This document shows positions 5,527 to 12,858 of a stretch of 64,000 bases of DNA, in pieces. Position numbers and translations under genes: made by a program. Origin of the DNA: Halobellus inordinatus. GTDB taxonomy: Archaea > Halobacteriota > Halobacteria > Halobacteriales > Haloferacaceae. The notes beneath the pieces are model-generated. The model saw only the letters and a program-made list of their open reading frames with translations. It was not told the origin of the DNA and did no database searches. The first letter of the stretch is position 1. Every line of letters begins with the position of its first letter. Location: assembly GCF_024464655.1 (NCBI RefSeq), contig NZ_JANHAV010000001.1:620001-684000 (forward strand), read 5' to 3'.

Positions 5527-5712
5527 TCACGGTTCCGGGGCTCTTTCATCATCCAACCACGCTAATTTCCGATGTTCCATAATCCGGTCAAATAACTCTA
5601 CGAACTGTCGGAACCGAGGGTTGGATGCGGCGATAGTTGCGTCGCGTCCGACCGCGCAGCGCCCACATCTCGCGGCAATAATTAACGTATCAGAAAGCGA
5701 CGCACGACTGTG
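5527..5712 (-). pseudogene. remnant of a CxxC-containing protein, no start codon
   Basis: A minus-strand frame is open for 61 codons from the stop at 5713-5715 to a TGA at 5527-5529, but no ATG or GTG occurs in it before the internal ATG near the end. The translated text looks protein-like: a CGRC zinc-knuckle-type pair, a helical segment (RFRQFVELFDRIMEHRK) and an acidic tail. It is probably the C-terminal remnant of a decayed gene. It could also be a real small gene with an unusual start. No family is assigned. Confidence 0.4.
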
Positions 5713-5750
5713 CTAACGCGGCTTGGGACAGATGGCCTCCCGTCAAATGT

Positions 5751-5768
5751 ATACACAAGTATGTGTAT
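5751..5768. promoter_or_regulatory. 18-bp interrupted palindrome upstream of guaB
   Basis: ATACACA-AGTA-TGTGTAT is a perfect 7+7 inverted repeat with a 4-bp centre, 80 bases before the guaB start codon. The dyad shape suits a dimeric repressor or activator. No known factor is assigned. Confidence 0.45.
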
Positions 5769-5847
5769 CGAGCGCCGATACGTGCCAACGATCTTCACAG
5801 GCGTGGTGTCTCGCAACGCTTTTGTCGATTCACTGTGGACCGTTTAT

Positions 5848-7347
5848 ATGGCGAACGACGTTTCTGACAACGGCCCATTCTCCGAGAAACTTCGAGTACC
5901 GGAAGCGCTGACGTTCGACGACGTGCTCCTTCGACCGATGGAGAGCCGCGTCGAACCCGACGCGGCGGACGTCTCGACACACGTCTCGAAGAACGTCGAA
6001 CTGAACATTCCGATCCTCTCGGCCGCGATGGACACGGTCACCGAAGCCGGGATGGCGATCGGGATGGCTCGTGAAGGCGGTCTCGGCGTCCTCCACCAGA
6101 ATATGGACACAGAACGGATGGTCGCAGAGATCGAACACGTAAAGCGCGCTGACGAACTCGTGATCCGCCGGGAGGACGTGGTCACGGCGAATCCGAGCCA
6201 GACGGTCCGCGAGGTCGACGCGATGATGGAGCGAGAAGGCGTCTCGGGCGCGCCGGTCGTCGACGACGACGACGTCGTGCTTGGGATCATCTCCGGCACC
6301 GACATCCGTCCCTACCTCGAAGTCGGCGACACCGACGAGGTTCGGGAGGCGATGACCGACGAGGTCGTCACGGCCCCGCGCGACGTCGAGGCCCGCGACG
6401 CGCTCGAGCTGATGTACGACCACAAGATCGAGCGCGTACCGATCGTCGACGACGACGACCGCCTCGTCGGTCTCGTCACGATGCAGGGCATCCTCCAGCG
6501 TCGCGAACACGAGAACGCCGCCCGCGACGAAGACGGACGCCTCCGCGTCGGCGTCGCTGTCGGTCCCTTCGACGCCGACCGCGCCCAGGCGGCCGACGAG
6601 GCCGACGCCGACGTGATTTTCATCGACTGCGCGCACGCGCACAACCTCAATGTCCTCGACAGCGCACGCGAGATCAAGAGCGCCGTCGACGCCGACGTCG
6701 TCGTCGGCAACGTCGGCACTCAGGAAGCGGCCGAGGCCGCCGTCGACTTCGCCGACGGGCTGAAGGTCGGCATCGGCCCCGGTTCGATCTGTACGACCCG
6801 GGTCGTCTCCGGTGCCGGGATGCCACAGATCACCGCGGTTGCGGAGGTCGCAGATGTCGCCGCACCCGAAGGCGTCCCCGTCATCGCGGACGGCGGCATC
6901 CGCTACTCCGGCGACGCGATCAAGGCGATCGCCGCGGGCGCAGACGCCGTGATGCTCGGCTCGTACTTCGCCGGCACCGAGGAAGCGCCCGGTCGCGTCA
7001 TCACGATGAACGGGAAAAAGTACAAGCAATATCGAGGAATGGGCTCGGTCGGCGCGATGAAATCCGGCGGCAGCGAGCGCTACCTCAAAGACACCGAAGA
7101 AGACGAGGAGTTCGTCCCGGAGGGCGTCGAGGCTGCGACGCCGTACAAGGGCACGCTCGCCTCCGAACTGCACCAGCTCGTCGGCGGGATGCGCTCGGGG
7201 ATGGGCTACGTCGGCGCCGAGACTATCCCGGCGTTCAAAGAGCGCGCGGAGTTCGTCCGCGTCTCCAGTGCCGGCCAGACCGAGGGCCACCCCCACGACG
7301 TGATGATCACCGACGAAGCGCCGAACTACAGCCCCGACAGTAACTAG
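5848..7347 (+). CDS. guaB: IMP dehydrogenase
   Basis: 499 residues from ATG 5848 (MANDVSDNG). The frame extends upstream, but that part lacks protein character. The enzyme oxidises IMP to XMP with NAD+, the committed step of GMP synthesis. It shows the family layout: an N-terminal barrel part ([10 protein letters not shown]), two CBS domains at about residues 100-215, then the rest of the barrel with the catalytic loop [13 protein letters not shown] (nucleophile Cys315) and the GGIRYSGD phosphate-binding segment. Full length, no defects. It stands alone; the 18-bp palindrome about 80 bp upstream may control it. The long reverse-strand frame over the same region is a GC-rich shadow. Confidence 0.95.
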
Positions 7348-7506
7348 AGCCGCGAACCGCGGATCCTCTCGACCACCTTCGTGAGCCGACTGTTCCCGTC
7401 GCGACGTCGGCGTCACGCCTGACGTAGGGTTCACAAGGGGTATCTTGATATGCCCCCGGAAAACAATCCTTCATATCGGTGTCATCGGAACACCGCGAAC
7501 TTACCA

Positions 7507-8121
7507 ATGAGCGCTGACCTGCCGCTAGTGCTCGTCGTCGAAGACGAGCCAGATCTCGCCGACCTGTACGCAACGTGGCTGAGAGACGACTATCGCGTCC
7601 GCGTCGCCTACGGGGGACGTGAGGCCCTCGACGAACTCGACGACGAAGTCGACGTCGTCCTCCTCGACCGCCGGATGCCGGATCTCTCGGGTGACGAAGC
7701 ACTAGAGGCGATCCGCGACCGAGGGGTCGAATGCCGGGTCGCGATGGTCACCGCCGTCGAACCCGACTTCGACATCGTCAAGATGGGATTCGACGACTAC
7801 CTCGTCAAGCCCGTCTCGCGTGAGTCGCTCAAAGAGACGGTCGAGAATCTCCTGCTTCGCAACACCTACGACGACGGCATCCAGGAACTGTTCTCGCTGG
7901 CCTCTAAGAAAGCCATCCTGGAGTCCGAGAAAGACGCCGCGACGCTCGAAGAGCACGAGGAGTACCAGAAACTCTCGGACCGCGTCGACGAACTCCGCTC
8001 GCAGCTCGATCAGGCACTCGTCGAATTCGACGACGAGCACGATATGACGGCGATGTACCGCGACCTCGGCGACGACTTCGACGTCGAGCCCGCCGACGCC
8101 GACGTCGAACAGTCCGAGTAA
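7507..8121 (+). CDS. HalX-domain response regulator
   Basis: 204 residues from ATG 7507. Residues 8-118 form a receiver domain, with the acidic pair EDE at 12-14, phospho-acceptor Asp54 in VVLLDRRMPD, Thr in VTAVEP and the invariant Lys in DDYLVKPV. The remainder is the HalX domain, a helical output region found in haloarchaeal regulators, beginning at about residue 120 and including a coiled region (YQKLSDRVDELRSQL). It lacks an obvious DNA-binding fold, so output is probably through protein contacts. No kinase gene is adjacent. A paralogue with the same layout sits at 30756-31388. Confidence 0.9.
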   Translation: MSADLPLVLVVEDEPDLADLYATWLRDDYRVRVAYGGREALDELDDEVDVVLLDRRMPDLSGDEALEAIRDRGVECRVAMVTAVEPDFDIVKMGFDDYLVKPVSRESLKETVENLLLRNTYDDGIQELFSLASKKAILESEKDAATLEEHEEYQKLSDRVDELRSQLDQALVEFDDEHDMTAMYRDLGDDFDVEPADADVEQSE

Positions 8122-8214: not shown

Positions 8215-8228
8215 TTTGTATATACAAA
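8215..8228. promoter_or_regulatory. perfect 14-bp palindrome TTTGTATATACAAA
   Basis: A perfect dyad in an AT-rich stretch about 80 bp before the small gene at 8307. Possible operator; because it is AT-only apart from one G and one C, chance is not excluded. A TTTTATTTTAAA box at about 8274-8285 is the likelier TATA element. Confidence 0.35.
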
Positions 8229-8306
8229 TACAACTAAAATAAGATAATATCATATCAGAAAGTGTCAGAAAATTTTATTTTAAACCGCGCTGATGGACTA
8301 ATCGTC

Positions 8307-8453
8307 ATGTCCGACGATGACACCAACGCTGTCGCACAGTACCTAGCTGACCACCCCCGCGCGATGGGCGTCCTGTTCACCGCCGTGCTCCTGCTCTCGC
8401 AGGCTGGCGCGGTCGCAGCGGGCGCAAACCACGGGGCAATTTCCGGTCCGTAA
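8307..8453 (+). CDS. 48-residue membrane peptide, DUF7503-like
   Basis: 48 residues from ATG 8307, with a TATA-like AT block 22-33 bases upstream. An acidic N-terminus with AQYLADHPR is followed by one hydrophobic helix (about residues 19-39, VLFTAVLLLSQAGAVAAG) and a short tail. I recognise this pattern as the small haloarchaeal family named DUF7503, whose role is unknown. Its stop codon abuts the stop of the convergent CHAT-protease gene (TAA at 8451-8453 against TTA at 8454-8456). Families with neighbouring DUF numbers occur side by side here, suggesting a recurrent module; that is inference. Confidence 0.62.
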   Translation: MSDDDTNAVAQYLADHPRAMGVLFTAVLLLSQAGAVAAGANHGAISGP

Positions 8454-10646
8454 TTAGAACGAATCAGTCGACAAGTTCTCGCTCCACCGCAACGACCCGT
8501 CGATTAACGTCGGAATATTCTCGAGCGAAAGAAAGTCATCGAGTTCCATCTCTGTTAGCTCGAACGTATCCGCAGTTCCTGACGATAGATAGTAGGTCTC
8601 GTTATCAGGTATGTACGGAACGACCATACTACCGAGTTCGTACTCCGCGGACGGGTACGTTCGATAATCGACGATAAAGCCCGAGTCTGAACGCGTTATT
8701 TTGCACATATTCGGGAGTGCTCCCTGAACTTGAGTTACAGAGAAACTCCCGTCTCCGACCACGATGTAGTCGCTGCCGATGTAACTGTCCTTGCGAGCGA
8801 TCTCCAACGAAATCCGGATCGGGAAGCCGTAGTTCAACAGTCGCGCCAGGCTTCGACCGATGTCGACGGCGCCGCTGTTGACCACGTCGTTCAGCGTGAC
8901 GATCCCGGCGATCGCCCCGCGTTCGATGAGTTCCATTCCCTGTTCGTACGATTGACACGCGTTGAGCAGGAACGAGTCGACGCCGAGCGAATCGATCGTC
9001 GTGACGTCGAGCGCGCCGTCTGGGCACTGGAATCCGTCTTCGTCGATGTGTCCGATGTAGTGCAAGAACTCCGTCTCTTCGGCGAGCACGGATCTGAGTT
9101 CTTCCACAGTGAGTTCGTAGTGCGTGCGCACCTCGAAGGGGAGTTCGTCGCGGGATCCATACACTGACTCGACCGCGTCCCGCTCTTCGGCCATCTTCGG
9201 ATCGTTGCAGACGACGGTGATTCCGATGTCGCCCTCGATTGGGTCGCGGGACAACCGATTGCGATACGCCTGCAGCGACGCCTTACTCGCACCGATCGGA
9301 ATCCCCGGCCCGAGCCACGCCTGTTCGAGCGAGTCCGTCTCCGGAGGTTGTACGTACGTTTGTTTGCTCTCGTCGGGGCCGACTTGCTGACTCCGCGTGC
9401 CCGCACTTCGCGTGAATTCGCCGGCTGCTGGTGCAGTGCTCGGCGACGGCGGCGTCGCGGTTCTGCGGAGGAAGTCGTCGACGGCGTTCGCCTGAACGGA
9501 CGATCCGCTGGTCGGCTGGGTCGCCGGCGTCGTCACTACCGCCAGGTCGTTCGCGACGAACGGCAGGAGTTCGACGTTCGGAGCGTTCGGCGTGACGTGA
9601 GCGGTGAGTTTCCACTCCGGGAGGTGCGGCTCGATCGTCTCGTAGGGGACACGCAGGTACGCTTCGAGCTGCTCGCCGATCGAACGGTCGTACAGATCGG
9701 CGAAGTCCAGATCCAGCGTCGATTCGAGCGTCCGTCGCTCGTGGAGATCGACCTGGTAGTAACCCTCGGTACGCGTGAGACAGTCGAGGAAGAAGGTCTG
9801 TTTGAGGACCCGCTCGACGGACTTCTCGAACCCGTCGAGACCGTCGAGGTCGTACGCGAACCCGCCCTCGGTCACGATTCGCGGCGACGCTCCCGGCACT
9901 ACCTCCGCGCCGAGATAGTACGCCAGCGGCGCGGCGACGTAGACGTGCCGGTGCGTCTCGGGGAGTTCCAGCCGAACGCCCGTCTCGGGTGGTTCGAGAC
10001 CGTCTGGGGCCTCGAACTGAGAGCCGCGTTCGATGAGGGGTGGATGCCCGCGGAGCGTGGGATAGGAGCGCTCCACGGTCGTCGTCTTCAGCGCCGACCC
10101 GAGAAGCGAGACCGCACGCATCGCGTCTCGGGGGTGATCCGTCGTCCGAATCGTCGCCGCGGGACGCTTGTGATGCGATCGTGCGCCGACGAGCACGTCG
10201 GTCTCCGACTCGAATTCGAGCCGTGTCCGGGTTGCATCGGAGACGACCCGAAGCGGTGCATCGACTCGTAAATACAGTTTAATTGGCGCGAACAACTCGA
10301 CGCTGTAGGTTCCCGCCGGGAACGTCTGTTCCGCGAAGTGTTCGATCTGTCCCAACATCTCGCCGGATCCGTCCCGGACACAGACCGAGACGACGGTCTC
10401 TAACTCGAGTCCGTCAGTCCGAACGGTTACTGCTTCGTCGGCGGGGAACTGAAACGCGTCGGGGTCGGCCGTCCGTAGTTGAACCTCCTCCGGCGTCGAG
10501 AGCACGAATCGGCTCCGTTCGATCGGATCGGAGACGACGACGCCCGTCTGATCGGCCGGTGAATCGAACTCGATCTGGAGGTGGTCGTCCCCAACCGGAG
10601 CGACAGCGTCCGACTCCGGCCCCCTACGGCGCCCAAACCCTTCCAT
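8454..10646 (-). CDS. CHAT-domain (caspase-like) protease
   Basis: 730 residues from ATG 10646. The C-terminal ~250 residues form a CHAT domain. They include a His in the strand motif LHYIGHIDEDG (His533) and a Cys in FLLNACQSYEQG (Cys564), 31 residues apart, with the usual following hydrophobic segment. These are the caspase-type catalytic dyad. The first ~480 residues are beta-rich with no recognised fold, and a linker at about 400-450 is rich in Ser, Thr, Pro and Gln. CHAT proteases act in stress signalling and in abortive phage defence when coupled to sensors. The probable partner is the DUF7504-like gene, which ends 84 bp upstream in the same direction. The substrate is unknown. Confidence 0.85.
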   Translation of the reverse strand: MEGFGRRRGPESDAVAPVGDDHLQIEFDSPADQTGVVVSDPIERSRFVLSTPEEVQLRTADPDAFQFPADEAVTVRTDGLELETVVSVCVRDGSGEMLGQIEHFAEQTFPAGTYSVELFAPIKLYLRVDAPLRVVSDATRTRLEFESETDVLVGARSHHKRPAATIRTTDHPRDAMRAVSLLGSALKTTTVERSYPTLRGHPPLIERGSQFEAPDGLEPPETGVRLELPETHRHVYVAAPLAYYLGAEVVPGASPRIVTEGGFAYDLDGLDGFEKSVERVLKQTFFLDCLTRTEGYYQVDLHERRTLESTLDLDFADLYDRSIGEQLEAYLRVPYETIEPHLPEWKLTAHVTPNAPNVELLPFVANDLAVVTTPATQPTSGSSVQANAVDDFLRRTATPPSPSTAPAAGEFTRSAGTRSQQVGPDESKQTYVQPPETDSLEQAWLGPGIPIGASKASLQAYRNRLSRDPIEGDIGITVVCNDPKMAEERDAVESVYGSRDELPFEVRTHYELTVEELRSVLAEETEFLHYIGHIDEDGFQCPDGALDVTTIDSLGVDSFLLNACQSYEQGMELIERGAIAGIVTLNDVVNSGAVDIGRSLARLLNYGFPIRISLEIARKDSYIGSDYIVVGDGSFSVTQVQGALPNMCKITRSDSGFIVDYRTYPSAEYELGSMVVPYIPDNETYYLSSGTADTFELTEMELDDFLSLENIPTLIDGSLRWSENLSTDSF

Positions 10647-10730
10647 TGTGACAATACATCACGCACGAAGCAAAAAGCGTACTGGTGATCGACGGCCCGT
10701 GTGGGTTCTATGTCCCGCTGGCAGAGACGG

Positions 10731-11552
10731 CTACGACTGTGGATCGATCGGCAGCCACTCCGAGGAGACGTTGGCGTCTCGGAAGTGCCAGCGCTGCTGT
10801 GGCGTCGTGCCGTCGAGCCGCAACTCGACGACGGCGTCGAACAGGGGCGCAAGGAGTCGGGTCGTCTCGGATTCGAGAGGTTCCGGCAGCCGAACGTGTG
10901 CCATCCCGTCGACCGTCCGGACGTCGTTCGCGAGGATGTGCAGGAAACGGAACACCGTCTGTTCGTCGTACTCGGACAGTAGGGGGGCCACGCAGTCGAA
11001 CGCGACGCGCAACTCGGCGGGGTCGAGACCGCCGGCGACCGAATCGAGCTGTTCGATCGCCTCGCCGATCGCGACTCCGAGTTCGGCGATCGATCCTTCG
11101 GCCGTCACGGAGGCGCCCGCGTACCCACGTTCGCCGACGTAGATCCCGGGCGTCGAGTCGACGTCCGGCAGGTGGCCCATCGGCGCCGGTTCGTCGCGGG
11201 AATTCGAGGACGGGCCGGCCCGCGCACCCGGATGCGTGGCTCTCTGTCCGTTGGCTGTCGTCGAGCGTCGCGCGGCGACGTCCCATCGAAGGATTCGCGT
11301 CCACTCCGGCGTCCAGCGCTCGACGTCTTCGAATCGGGCGTCTGGGCTCGCCCCCCGTTCGACGACGACGCGACGCCGGTCCGCCGCGTCCTCGTCGCCG
11401 AGCATACACCCGGACAGACGAGCGTAGACCTCATCGGGCACGGACCCGACGATCAAAAGCGCGCTACCGTTTGACTTCAGATCGTCGAGTGCGGTCGCGA
11501 CGCCCACAGTGGCACCGACGTCTGTCCCGTCGGGGCCGCCTCCTGTGTGCAT
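10731..11552 (-). CDS. DUF7504-like RecA-superfamily protein
   Basis: 273 residues from ATG 11552; a GTG four codons upstream is also possible. An AT-rich tattacttt box lies about 30 bases upstream. The N-terminal half has a RecA/KaiC-like beginning (ALDDLKSNGSALLIVGSVP) in which the classical Walker A lysine loop is absent. The second half has a helix-rich region (FRFLHILANDVRT) typical of haloarchaeal HTR-like proteins, which I associate with DUF7504. Such proteins are thought to be signalling relatives of KaiC; no biochemical role is established. Transcribed ahead of the CHAT protease, it may sense or regulate it. Confidence 0.6.
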   Translation of the reverse strand: MHTGGGPDGTDVGATVGVATALDDLKSNGSALLIVGSVPDEVYARLSGCMLGDEDAADRRRVVVERGASPDARFEDVERWTPEWTRILRWDVAARRSTTANGQRATHPGARAGPSSNSRDEPAPMGHLPDVDSTPGIYVGERGYAGASVTAEGSIAELGVAIGEAIEQLDSVAGGLDPAELRVAFDCVAPLLSEYDEQTVFRFLHILANDVRTVDGMAHVRLPEPLESETTRLLAPLFDAVVELRLDGTTPQQRWHFRDANVSSEWLPIDPQS

Positions 11553-11613: not shown

Positions 11614-11692
11614 ATCGGGATTATCGTACGTCTCCATAGGCTTCTCGCCGGACGATACGGGGAGAGTCTCCGAACAGTTACGTAGCCCCTAT
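11614..11692. repeat. palindromic element, type A copy 2 (79 bp)
   Basis: Read on the minus strand this begins ATAGGGGCTACGTAACTGTT and carries the core CGTCCGGCGAGAA. It aligns along its whole length with the element at 22414-22493, with scattered changes and a one-base gap. Ends are imperfect inverted repeats. Its first base on that strand is the last A of the TAA stop of the aminotransferase gene. Confidence 0.75.
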
Positions 11693-12858
11693 TAGTTCGA
11701 CTCGACGAACGACTCGATCCGGTTCAGCGCTTCCTTCAGTTCGCTCATCCCGGACGCATACGAGACGCGGAGATGTCCGTTCCCGCCCTCGCCGAAGACG
11801 CGTCCCGGGACGAGCGCGACGCGCTTCTCTCGAATGAGCGCCTCCGCGAACGCTTCGTCGTCCTCCCAGCCCGGCGGACACTTCGGGAAGACGTAGAACG
11901 CGCCTTTCGCCTCGAAGCAGTCCATCCCGAGTTCGTTGAAGCGGGAGATGACGAACTTGCGCCGACGGTCGAACTCCTGGCGCATCTCCTCGACGGCGTC
12001 GTCGCAGGACTCGAGCGCCTCGATCGCGGCGAACTGCGCCGTCGTCGGCGCGGATAACATCGTGTACTGGTGGATGCGGTTCATCGCGTCGATGATCTCC
12101 GCTGGGCCGAGGGCGTACCCCAAGCGCATCCCAGTCATCGCGTAGGCCTTCGAGAAGCCGTTGAACACGACCGTCCGCTCGCGCATCCCGGGGAGCGTCG
12201 CGATCGAGACGTGCTCGTCCTCGTAACGGAGCGCCGCGTAGATTTCATCGGACAGCACGACCAGATCGTGCTCGCGGGCGAACTCGGCGACTTCTGTGAG
12301 TTCTTCGCGCGTCATCACCGCGCCCGTCGGATTGTTCGGGTAACAGAGGACGAGCGTGTCCGCGTCTGCGGCCCCGGCGCGTTCGAGGTCCTCGTAGGTG
12401 AGGACGAAGTCGTTCTCCGCGCGTGTCTGCACGGGGAGCGCCTCGCCGCCGGCGAACGTCACCGTCGGGCCGTACGAGATGTACGACGGCTGTGGGACAG
12501 CCACCGTGTCGCCGGGATCGACGAGCGCACGCATCGCGAGGTCGACCGCCTCGCTCGCGCCCGCCGTGACGAGGATCTCCTCGTCGGGCTCGTAGGAGAG
12601 GTCGTAGCGCGTCACGTGCTCTGCGATCCGCTCGCGGAGGTCCTTACGGCCCCGGTTGGCCGTGTAAGAGGTGCGACCGCGCTCCAGCGAATCGATCGCG
12701 GCGGAACGGGCGGCCCAGGGGGCTGAGAAGTCGGGCTCACCGACGCCCAGAGAGACGATGTCGTCCATCTCCTCGGCGAGTTCGAAGAACCGGCGGATTC
12801 CCGACGGCGGCGTCTCTCGGGCCCGCTTCGAGAGCGGGCTGTGTGTCCCCTCGGTCAT
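11692..12858 (-). CDS. pyridoxal-phosphate aminotransferase, class I/II
   Basis: 388 residues. Fold-type I aminotransferase with the expected landmarks: SLGVGEPDF near the N-terminus, YPNNPTGA (substrate/PLP contact), SDEIYAAL (PLP Asp), and Lys237 in FNGFSKAYAMTGMRLGY, which forms the Schiff base. Arg in HLRVSYA near the C-terminus would bind the substrate carboxylate. It probably transfers amino groups from aspartate, alanine or an aromatic amino acid; specificity is not readable. The start overlaps the stop of the upstream Lrp-family gene by four bases, so the regulator and enzyme are co-transcribed and probably linked in amino-acid control. The stop codon abuts a palindromic element. Confidence 0.93.
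   Translation of the reverse strand: MTEGTHSPLSKRARETPPSGIRRFFELAEEMDDIVSLGVGEPDFSAPWAARSAAIDSLERGRTSYTANRGRKDLRERIAEHVTRYDLSYEPDEEILVTAGASEAVDLAMRALVDPGDTVAVPQPSYISYGPTVTFAGGEALPVQTRAENDFVLTYEDLERAGAADADTLVLCYPNNPTGAVMTREELTEVAEFAREHDLVVLSDEIYAALRYEDEHVSIATLPGMRERTVVFNGFSKAYAMTGMRLGYALGPAEIIDAMNRIHQYTMLSAPTTAQFAAIEALESCDDAVEEMRQEFDRRRKFVISRFNELGMDCFEAKGAFYVFPKCPPGWEDDEAFAEALIREKRVALVPGRVFGEGGNGHLRVSYASGMSELKEALNRIESFVESN

Follow-up and report, generated by a model that had tools for sequence, protein, structure and literature searches.

The window examined here is a stretch of 64,000 nucleotides of the haloarchaeon Halobellus inordinatus (RefSeq assembly GCF_024464655.1, contig NZ_JANHAV010000001.1, positions 620,001 to 684,000 of the forward strand), and the locus in question, at positions 8307 to 11552 of this window, encodes a small peptide of the DUF7503 family, a caspase-like protein of the CHAT family and a protein of the DUF7504 family. 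The peptide and CHAT genes converge until their stop codons abut, and the tail of the peptide and the C-terminus of the CHAT protein vary as one linked hypervariable cassette, which is the main finding and is invisible from one sequence. The features of the locus are, in window coordinates:

8307..8453, plus strand: DUF7503 small peptide gene, 48 amino acids (Pfam PF24335, E 3e-20, 71.9 bits against a cut-off of 27)
8307..8420, plus strand: conserved DUF7503 leader, residues 1-38 (column profile of 182 distinct relatives)
8421..8450, plus strand: hypervariable DUF7503 tail, GANHGAISGP in the window, following [VA]-x-A and ending in a near-invariant C-terminal Gly-Pro
8451..8456, no strand: stop-to-stop junction with 0 nucleotides (nt) between stop codons 8451-8453 and 8454-8456 (read from the sequence)
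8454..10646, minus strand: CHAT-family (clan CD, caspase-like) protein, 730 amino acids (Pfam CHAT matches of homologues; AlphaFold 2 (AF2) model and Foldseek)
9048..9050, minus strand: codon CAC of His533, catalytic by homology (invariant in 67 homologues)
8955..8957, minus strand: codon TGT of Cys564 in an NAC-x-S motif, catalytic by homology (invariant in 67 homologues)
8457..8726, minus strand: hypervariable C-terminal part of CHAT, residues ~641-730, the proposed peptide-recognition segment (divergence jump across genera; not in CHATs that lack DUF7503)
8421..8726, no strand: whole hypervariable cassette, comprising DUF7503 tail, junction and CHAT C-terminus (sharp nucleotide-divergence boundaries in genus g2)
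10731..11552, minus strand: DUF7504 gene for a degenerate KaiC/RecA-fold protein, an optional partner upstream of CHAT (Pfam PF24336, 2.5e-49, 168.6 bits)

The gene pair and its distribution

The window protein falls below the cut-off of the Pfam CHAT family (PF12770). Its assignment as a CHAT-type protein of caspase/separase-like fold with a predicted His/Cys dyad is nevertheless sound, since 16 of 67 homologues do match the family (best 6.5e-5), the AlphaFold model is confident (pLDDT 88.7) and Foldseek with this model retrieves separase (1.7e-7), the SAVED-CHAT filament 8tl0 (3.9e-7), Craspase 8d9g (9e-4) and gingipain R. The initial annotation of this DNA had proposed a CHAT protease with an intact dyad, and both His533 and Cys564 proved invariant across the 67 diverse homologues; the dyad is also present in 23 CHATs that lack DUF7503. 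A Pfam scan of the 67 members found no TPR family, no CRISPR, SAVED or TPR part was detected in the CHAT protein, and its profile had no match among the sequences of the PDB. The protein has no apparent signal or membrane segment.

Among 391 genomes of the class Halobacteria, CHAT homologues are found in 365 and DUF7503 in 335; the peptide family occurs in 335 of the 365 CHAT-positive genomes and in none of the 26 CHAT-negative ones (Fisher p 2.5e-25, uncorrected for phylogeny). When loci were sampled through DUF7503, a convergent CHAT gene was present in 30/30 and 59/60 of them, and 74 of 80 loci sampled through CHAT in named genomes carried a convergent DUF7503. The stop-to-stop distance has a median of 3 nt over 228 pairs. 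CHAT and DUF7503 are thus a near-obligate convergent pair across the Halobacteria, and their layout is not due to chance. The window genome itself holds DUF7503 in single copy.

The upstream gene was rightly read at the outset as a DUF7504-like member of the RecA superfamily, its AF2 model matching the KaiC C1 domain (2e-6). The Walker A motif GxxxxGK[ST] is absent from the window protein and from the A2 consensus, and DUF7504 is probably a non-working ATPase, judging from its sequence. The core of the module is the pair and not a triad, because DUF7504 is universal (391/391 genomes, CHAT-less ones included), multicopy (up to 9 copies per genome) and directly upstream of CHAT in only 37 of the 80 named loci; in one family it is divergent from CHAT. 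The co-occurrence of three families suggested by the initial annotation therefore stands for CHAT and DUF7503 and fails for DUF7504, and an obligate three-gene unit was rejected.

CHAT without DUF7503 was seen in 30 genomes. In 17 of these the best CHAT scores only ~430-500 bits and belongs to a second CHAT subfamily, and two more, G117 (CHAT matched in two pieces) and G072 (a partial match), may belong there as well. This second subfamily, with profile scores of ~300-600 bits and an intact dyad, is found widely among Halobacteria in the absence of DUF7503, for example in G019, G022, G042, G025, G045 and at loci L282-L298, and reaches 12 and 9 matches in genomes G123 and G345; a peptide ending in Gly-Pro was sought beside it and not found. 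Genus g76 has a diverged small open reading frame (ORF) convergent to CHAT that contains an NNPQ motif and a hydrophobic stretch and likewise ends in Gly-Pro. Genome G179 has a small ORF (L280:1122-1307(-)) lying divergent to a CHAT of intermediate type; it bears a different signal-like leader and ends in ...AVAGGGAGYYGP, suggesting that the leader counts for less than the Gly-Pro end. An intermediate CHAT similar to that of G179 is found in G366.

Single partners and remnants also occur. In G048, a congener of the window genome, CHAT is in pieces (G048:C12:4275-5209, L301), DUF7503 is gone and DUF7504 is intact, an apparent co-decay of the pair, while locus L117 (G159:C9) holds an orphan DUF7503 with its Gly-Pro end intact and no CHAT within 4 kb. 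At L107, L122, L124, L125, L134 and L142 an extra CHAT gene adjoins the DUF7503-CHAT pair, and this could be an orphan receptor for the same or another peptide. Matches limited to the N-terminal half of CHAT (profile ~5-361) lie in frames of 580-770 amino acids (G031:C1:183932, G013:C1:967903, G008:C8:52732, G038:C1:742298 and others) and possibly represent the same N domain joined to another C-terminal domain. CHAT homologues are carried by large plasmids of Halorussus, Haladaptatus and others (25 haloarchaeal plasmids), several with more than one copy each, and outside the Halobacteria, within the same phylum, they occur (bits 228-262) in only one of the families sampled, f19 (G398, G407, G416, G425).

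A linked hypervariable block

DUF7503 peptides are ~41-50 amino acids long and consist of two parts of opposite character. The leader follows the pattern Y-L-x2-[HN]-P-[RK]-M-x-G-[VA]-L-F-T-x2-L3-[ST]-Q-A-G-x-[VA]-x-A in 182 distinct sequences, of which 180 keep HP, 174 have V/A at -3 and 168 have A at -1, and it is under strong constraint (nonsynonymous divergence, pN, 0.034; ratio to synonymous divergence, pN/pS, 0.13). The tail after [VA]-x-A measures 7-10 residues, mostly 9 or 8, and ends in Gly-Pro in 170/182. With the hydrophobic stretch and [VA]-x-A motif seen in the column profile, DUF7503 resembles a signal peptide that carries a signal-peptidase motif and leads into a short mature peptide, as a prepropeptide for export would. 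The initial annotation had noted a tiny membrane peptide stop to stop with CHAT, and the tie between the two is borne out.

The sharpest view of the variation comes from genus g2, with 52 species of which 46 have DUF7503. The leaders of 40 species are near-identical, yet these species have 36 different 9-residue tails, and variation begins right after the AxA motif. In 15 close pairs within the genus, nucleotide divergence amounts to 0.058 for the leader, 0.337 for the tail and ~0.31-0.48 for the next ~240 nt, before falling back to 0.03-0.1 over most of the CHAT core; because the profile rises and drops at these points, the block is delimited as tail, junction and the final ~85 CHAT codons. 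Synonymous divergence is raised within it as well, pS being 0.75 in the tail and 0.68 over the final 50 codons of CHAT, compared with ~0.18 in the core, and other genera are alike, pS being higher at the C-terminus than in the core for 46 of 47 independent pairs. The codons of the Gly-Pro end, lying within the block, showed only synonymous change in the tested pairs, though pS there was 0.48-0.69. Classical positive selection on the tail was considered and is not supported, pN/pS being 0.3-0.6 and never above 1; the signal is a divergence raised at both types of site.

The two halves of the block change together. At a core divergence of 0-3%, the divergence of the CHAT C-terminus was 0.06, 0.34, 0.46 and ~0.6 for pairs with 0, 1, 2 and at least 3 tail differences, while the N domain 151-370 stayed flat at 0.04-0.06 over the same classes; permuting tails within clades gave p 0.001 for the C-terminus versus p 0.41 for this N domain. 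CHATs without DUF7503, from the second subfamily and the Haloplanus-like genomes, showed no hypervariable block at similar core divergence. Their median C-terminal pN was 0.09 versus 0.26 in CHATs with DUF7503 (p 0.0009), and the corresponding pS medians were 0.40 and 0.66 (p 0.002; 7 versus 20 disjoint pairs in both comparisons). Peptide tail and CHAT C-terminus thus vary as one linked, sharply bounded hypervariable block. Mutual information between tail and CHAT had looked very strong, but a global permutation gave larger values still from entropy alone, and both this statistic and its residue pairs were discarded; within-clade permutation did give an excess.

The block could in principle be a by-product of convergent gene ends that are loosely constrained or prone to recombination, with no functional coupling at all. 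A position where the 3' ends of convergent genes meet is what this would predict, and the entropy that inflated the first mutual-information statistic adds to the case. Such an origin is nonetheless very improbable in our judgement, given that divergence is raised at synonymous sites beyond amino-acid change, that Gly-Pro stays constant in the midst of the block, that the block is missing from CHATs without DUF7503 and that, with core divergence matched, changes in the tail go with changes in the C-terminus.

Upstream of the peptide gene lies:

8273..8284, plus strand: TATA-like element some 30 nt before the start of DUF7503 (AT content peaks between -40 and -30 across 182 upstream regions)

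Window positions 8220-8306 hold this conserved AT-rich TATA region and a second AT-rich block at about -75 to -55, present in all genera, hinting at regulated expression. The flanks at 5710-8121 and 11692-12858 encode IMP dehydrogenase, a HalX response regulator and an aminotransferase; these are kept in 18 of 80 loci and amount to local synteny outside the module. Neighbour clustering leaves CHAT, DUF7504 and DUF7503 as the only shared core, with no processing enzyme and no histidine kinase.

A candidate peptide signal and its receptor

A private peptide signal and its receptor would be expected to look like this linked hypervariable pair of a peptide and a caspase-like protease, and no such system has been described in archaea in the literature searched. 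We consider it probable, if by no great margin over doubt, that the products of the locus form a recognition pair, a peptide and its cognate receptor, with the CHAT protease as the receptor. The DUF7503 leader would direct the prepropeptide into or through the membrane, and a probable cut at [VA]-x-A would leave a peptide of 7-10 residues whose body is variable and whose Gly-Pro end is fixed; in Haloferax species related to H. volcanii the predicted product is GNT[SG][VI]IYGP. The ~85 C-terminal residues of CHAT would then recognise the peptide encoded by their own allele, and its binding would switch the cysteine protease on or off, with DUF7504 as a possible accessory regulator. The tail-to-tail layout would keep the peptide-coding and recognition-coding ends adjacent, and because these ends adjoin, new specificities may arise or move as one cassette of ~0.3 kb between conserved flanks. 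From export and cleavage through re-entry, peptide binding and protease gating to the purpose, a signal of cell density or kinship, the chain is one that we infer. The recognition pair is favoured because CHAT and DUF7503 are near-obligate partners, because the block is linked and sharply bounded, and because it is missing where DUF7503 is missing.

Several observations weigh against this interpretation. No route by which an exported peptide could reach a cytosolic CHAT is encoded at the locus. Twelve of the 182 distinct DUF7503 members lack the Gly-Pro end, and a check of their tails for frameshift or readthrough revealed no Gly-Pro beyond the stop. Six Haloplanus-like genomes (g13) retain a first-subfamily CHAT without DUF7503. 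Conservation of the leader exceeds what an ordinary signal peptide would require, so that the leader may have a role of its own. Most of the first covariation statistic was due to entropy bias, and a partial Mantel test gave no significant result in g2 alone (p 0.11); in other genera its signal was not specific to the C-terminus. The N domain 31-150 gave p 0.26 over all pairs, but p 0.002, with a smaller effect, at core divergence above 3%. Covariation could in part reflect DNA linkage rather than contact.

The initial annotation had pictured a sensor, a protease and a membrane effector in a cell-suicide or signalling module. Signalling remains likely, and cell suicide is possible but not indicated; the co-diversification of tail and C-terminus points instead to a ligand and its receptor. 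An effector of this kind would require CHAT to cut DUF7503, for instance at a cytosolic HP[RK]|M site, so that the freed helix permeabilises the membrane. The conserved [HN]-P-[RK] before the hydrophobic segment would offer a suitable site: separase and gingipain R, both among the best structural matches of CHAT, are Arg-specific clan CD proteases. Caspase-like activity has moreover been reported in Haloferax volcanii (PMC3615174). The hypervariable tail, its Gly-Pro end, the [VA]-x-A motif at the boundary of variability and the co-diversifying CHAT C-terminus would all be left unexplained, and we regard this mechanism as quite improbable.

A tail that stays inside the cell as a cognate ligand, inhibiting or activating CHAT, could also diversify in an arms race, with the module serving immunity and its variability evading viral inhibitors. 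CHAT proteases do act in CRISPR-linked immunity (Craspase, PMC10028731), and block-wise diversity with raised synonymous divergence would fit such a race. PADLOC, which covers anti-phage defence systems, gave zero matches for the CHAT, DUF7503 and DUF7504 proteins of the window, however, and no homologue was found in phage and viral collections. The module occurs once in the window genome and almost throughout the class instead of patchily, and the signal-peptide-like leader suggests export, so that an immune role appears improbable. The export-like leader, the short variable product and the matched variable partner would equally suit a bacteriocin-like antimicrobial tail with the variable CHAT C-terminus conferring self-immunity. 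Immunity needs no invariant protease dyad, and the near-universal single-locus distribution is unlike that of the halocins; this option seems to us very improbable too.

If the recognition pair is what it appears to be, its fullest reading is of a first archaeal peptide pheromone system, in which a near-species-specific peptide ending in Gly-Pro, exported by most haloarchaea, would be read by the variable C-terminus of CHAT and would gate intracellular proteolysis, new codes spreading as a 0.3 kb cassette. We put the chances of this whole scheme at just under even. The arrangement had been taken as undescribed, and the literature searched bears this out, holding neither a mention of DUF7503 or DUF7504 nor a description of gene-encoded peptide communication in archaea. 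Were the scheme true, archaea would have such communication, with a caspase-like protease as receptor in place of a kinase or TPR regulator, and kin recognition among haloarchaea would become open to test. The profiles of DUF7503 and DUF7504, the only two run there, both match in H. volcanii, and close relatives carry the whole locus, which makes the system testable in a standard laboratory archaeon.

Comparison with known systems

The strong caspase-like activity of H. volcanii has not been assigned to a gene (PMC3615174; Bidle, Seth-Pasricha), and the CHAT family, a class of caspase-fold cysteine peptidases that most haloarchaea possess, is a candidate for its source; the proposed scheme, if true, would supply a candidate gene for this long-unassigned activity. 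Similar activity is also reported in Methanosarcina, Pyrococcus and Sulfolobus, and the search for CHAT beyond the Halobacteria covered the same phylum only. H. volcanii is known for quorum sensing as well, which resembles the proposed system in that haloarchaeal cells communicate, here through a signal of no more than 3 kDa found in conditioned medium. Its quorum signal (disk-forming; DdfA, CirA) is proteinase K resistant and ethyl-acetate extractable (PMC12240190), and for these reasons is probably not the DUF7503 peptide.

For a CHAT protease gated by a partner there is precedent in Csx29, the TPR-CHAT protein of Craspase, which is allosterically controlled (PMC10028731). Craspase and SAVED-CHAT resemble the present protein in having a CHAT catalytic domain fused to other domains. 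They differ in that the partner here is a peptide of 41-50 amino acids, the C-terminal part of CHAT is hypervariable and no CRISPR, SAVED or TPR part accompanies it.

In agr of staphylococci and comQXPA of Bacillus, the peptide and the adjacent specificity region of its receptor vary within an otherwise conserved locus, which gives rise to pherotypes (PMC10482373, PMC4008528). The hypervariable region spanning peptide and receptor is alike here, the receptor role being inferred. No AgrB or ComQ processing enzyme and no histidine kinase take part, however, the candidate receptor is a cytosolic protease, and the layout is convergent.

The RRNPP quorum-sensing systems of Firmicutes (Rap-Phr, PlcR-PapR, arbitrium AimR-AimP) are recognised by a propeptide with a Sec-like leader, a mature peptide within the C-terminal 4-10 residues and an adjacent gene for a cytosolic receptor (PMC10075063). 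They share with the locus a small propeptide (~41-50 amino acids here) and an adjacent receptor-candidate gene (here at the median gap of 3 nt), and differ from it in that CHAT has no detected TPR or DNA-binding domain, the genes are convergent, the hosts are archaeal and the Gly-Pro end is fixed. By analogy, DUF7503-CHAT shows most of the features that define RRNPP propeptides and would work in the manner of agr, comQXP and RRNPP, while being a member of none of them.

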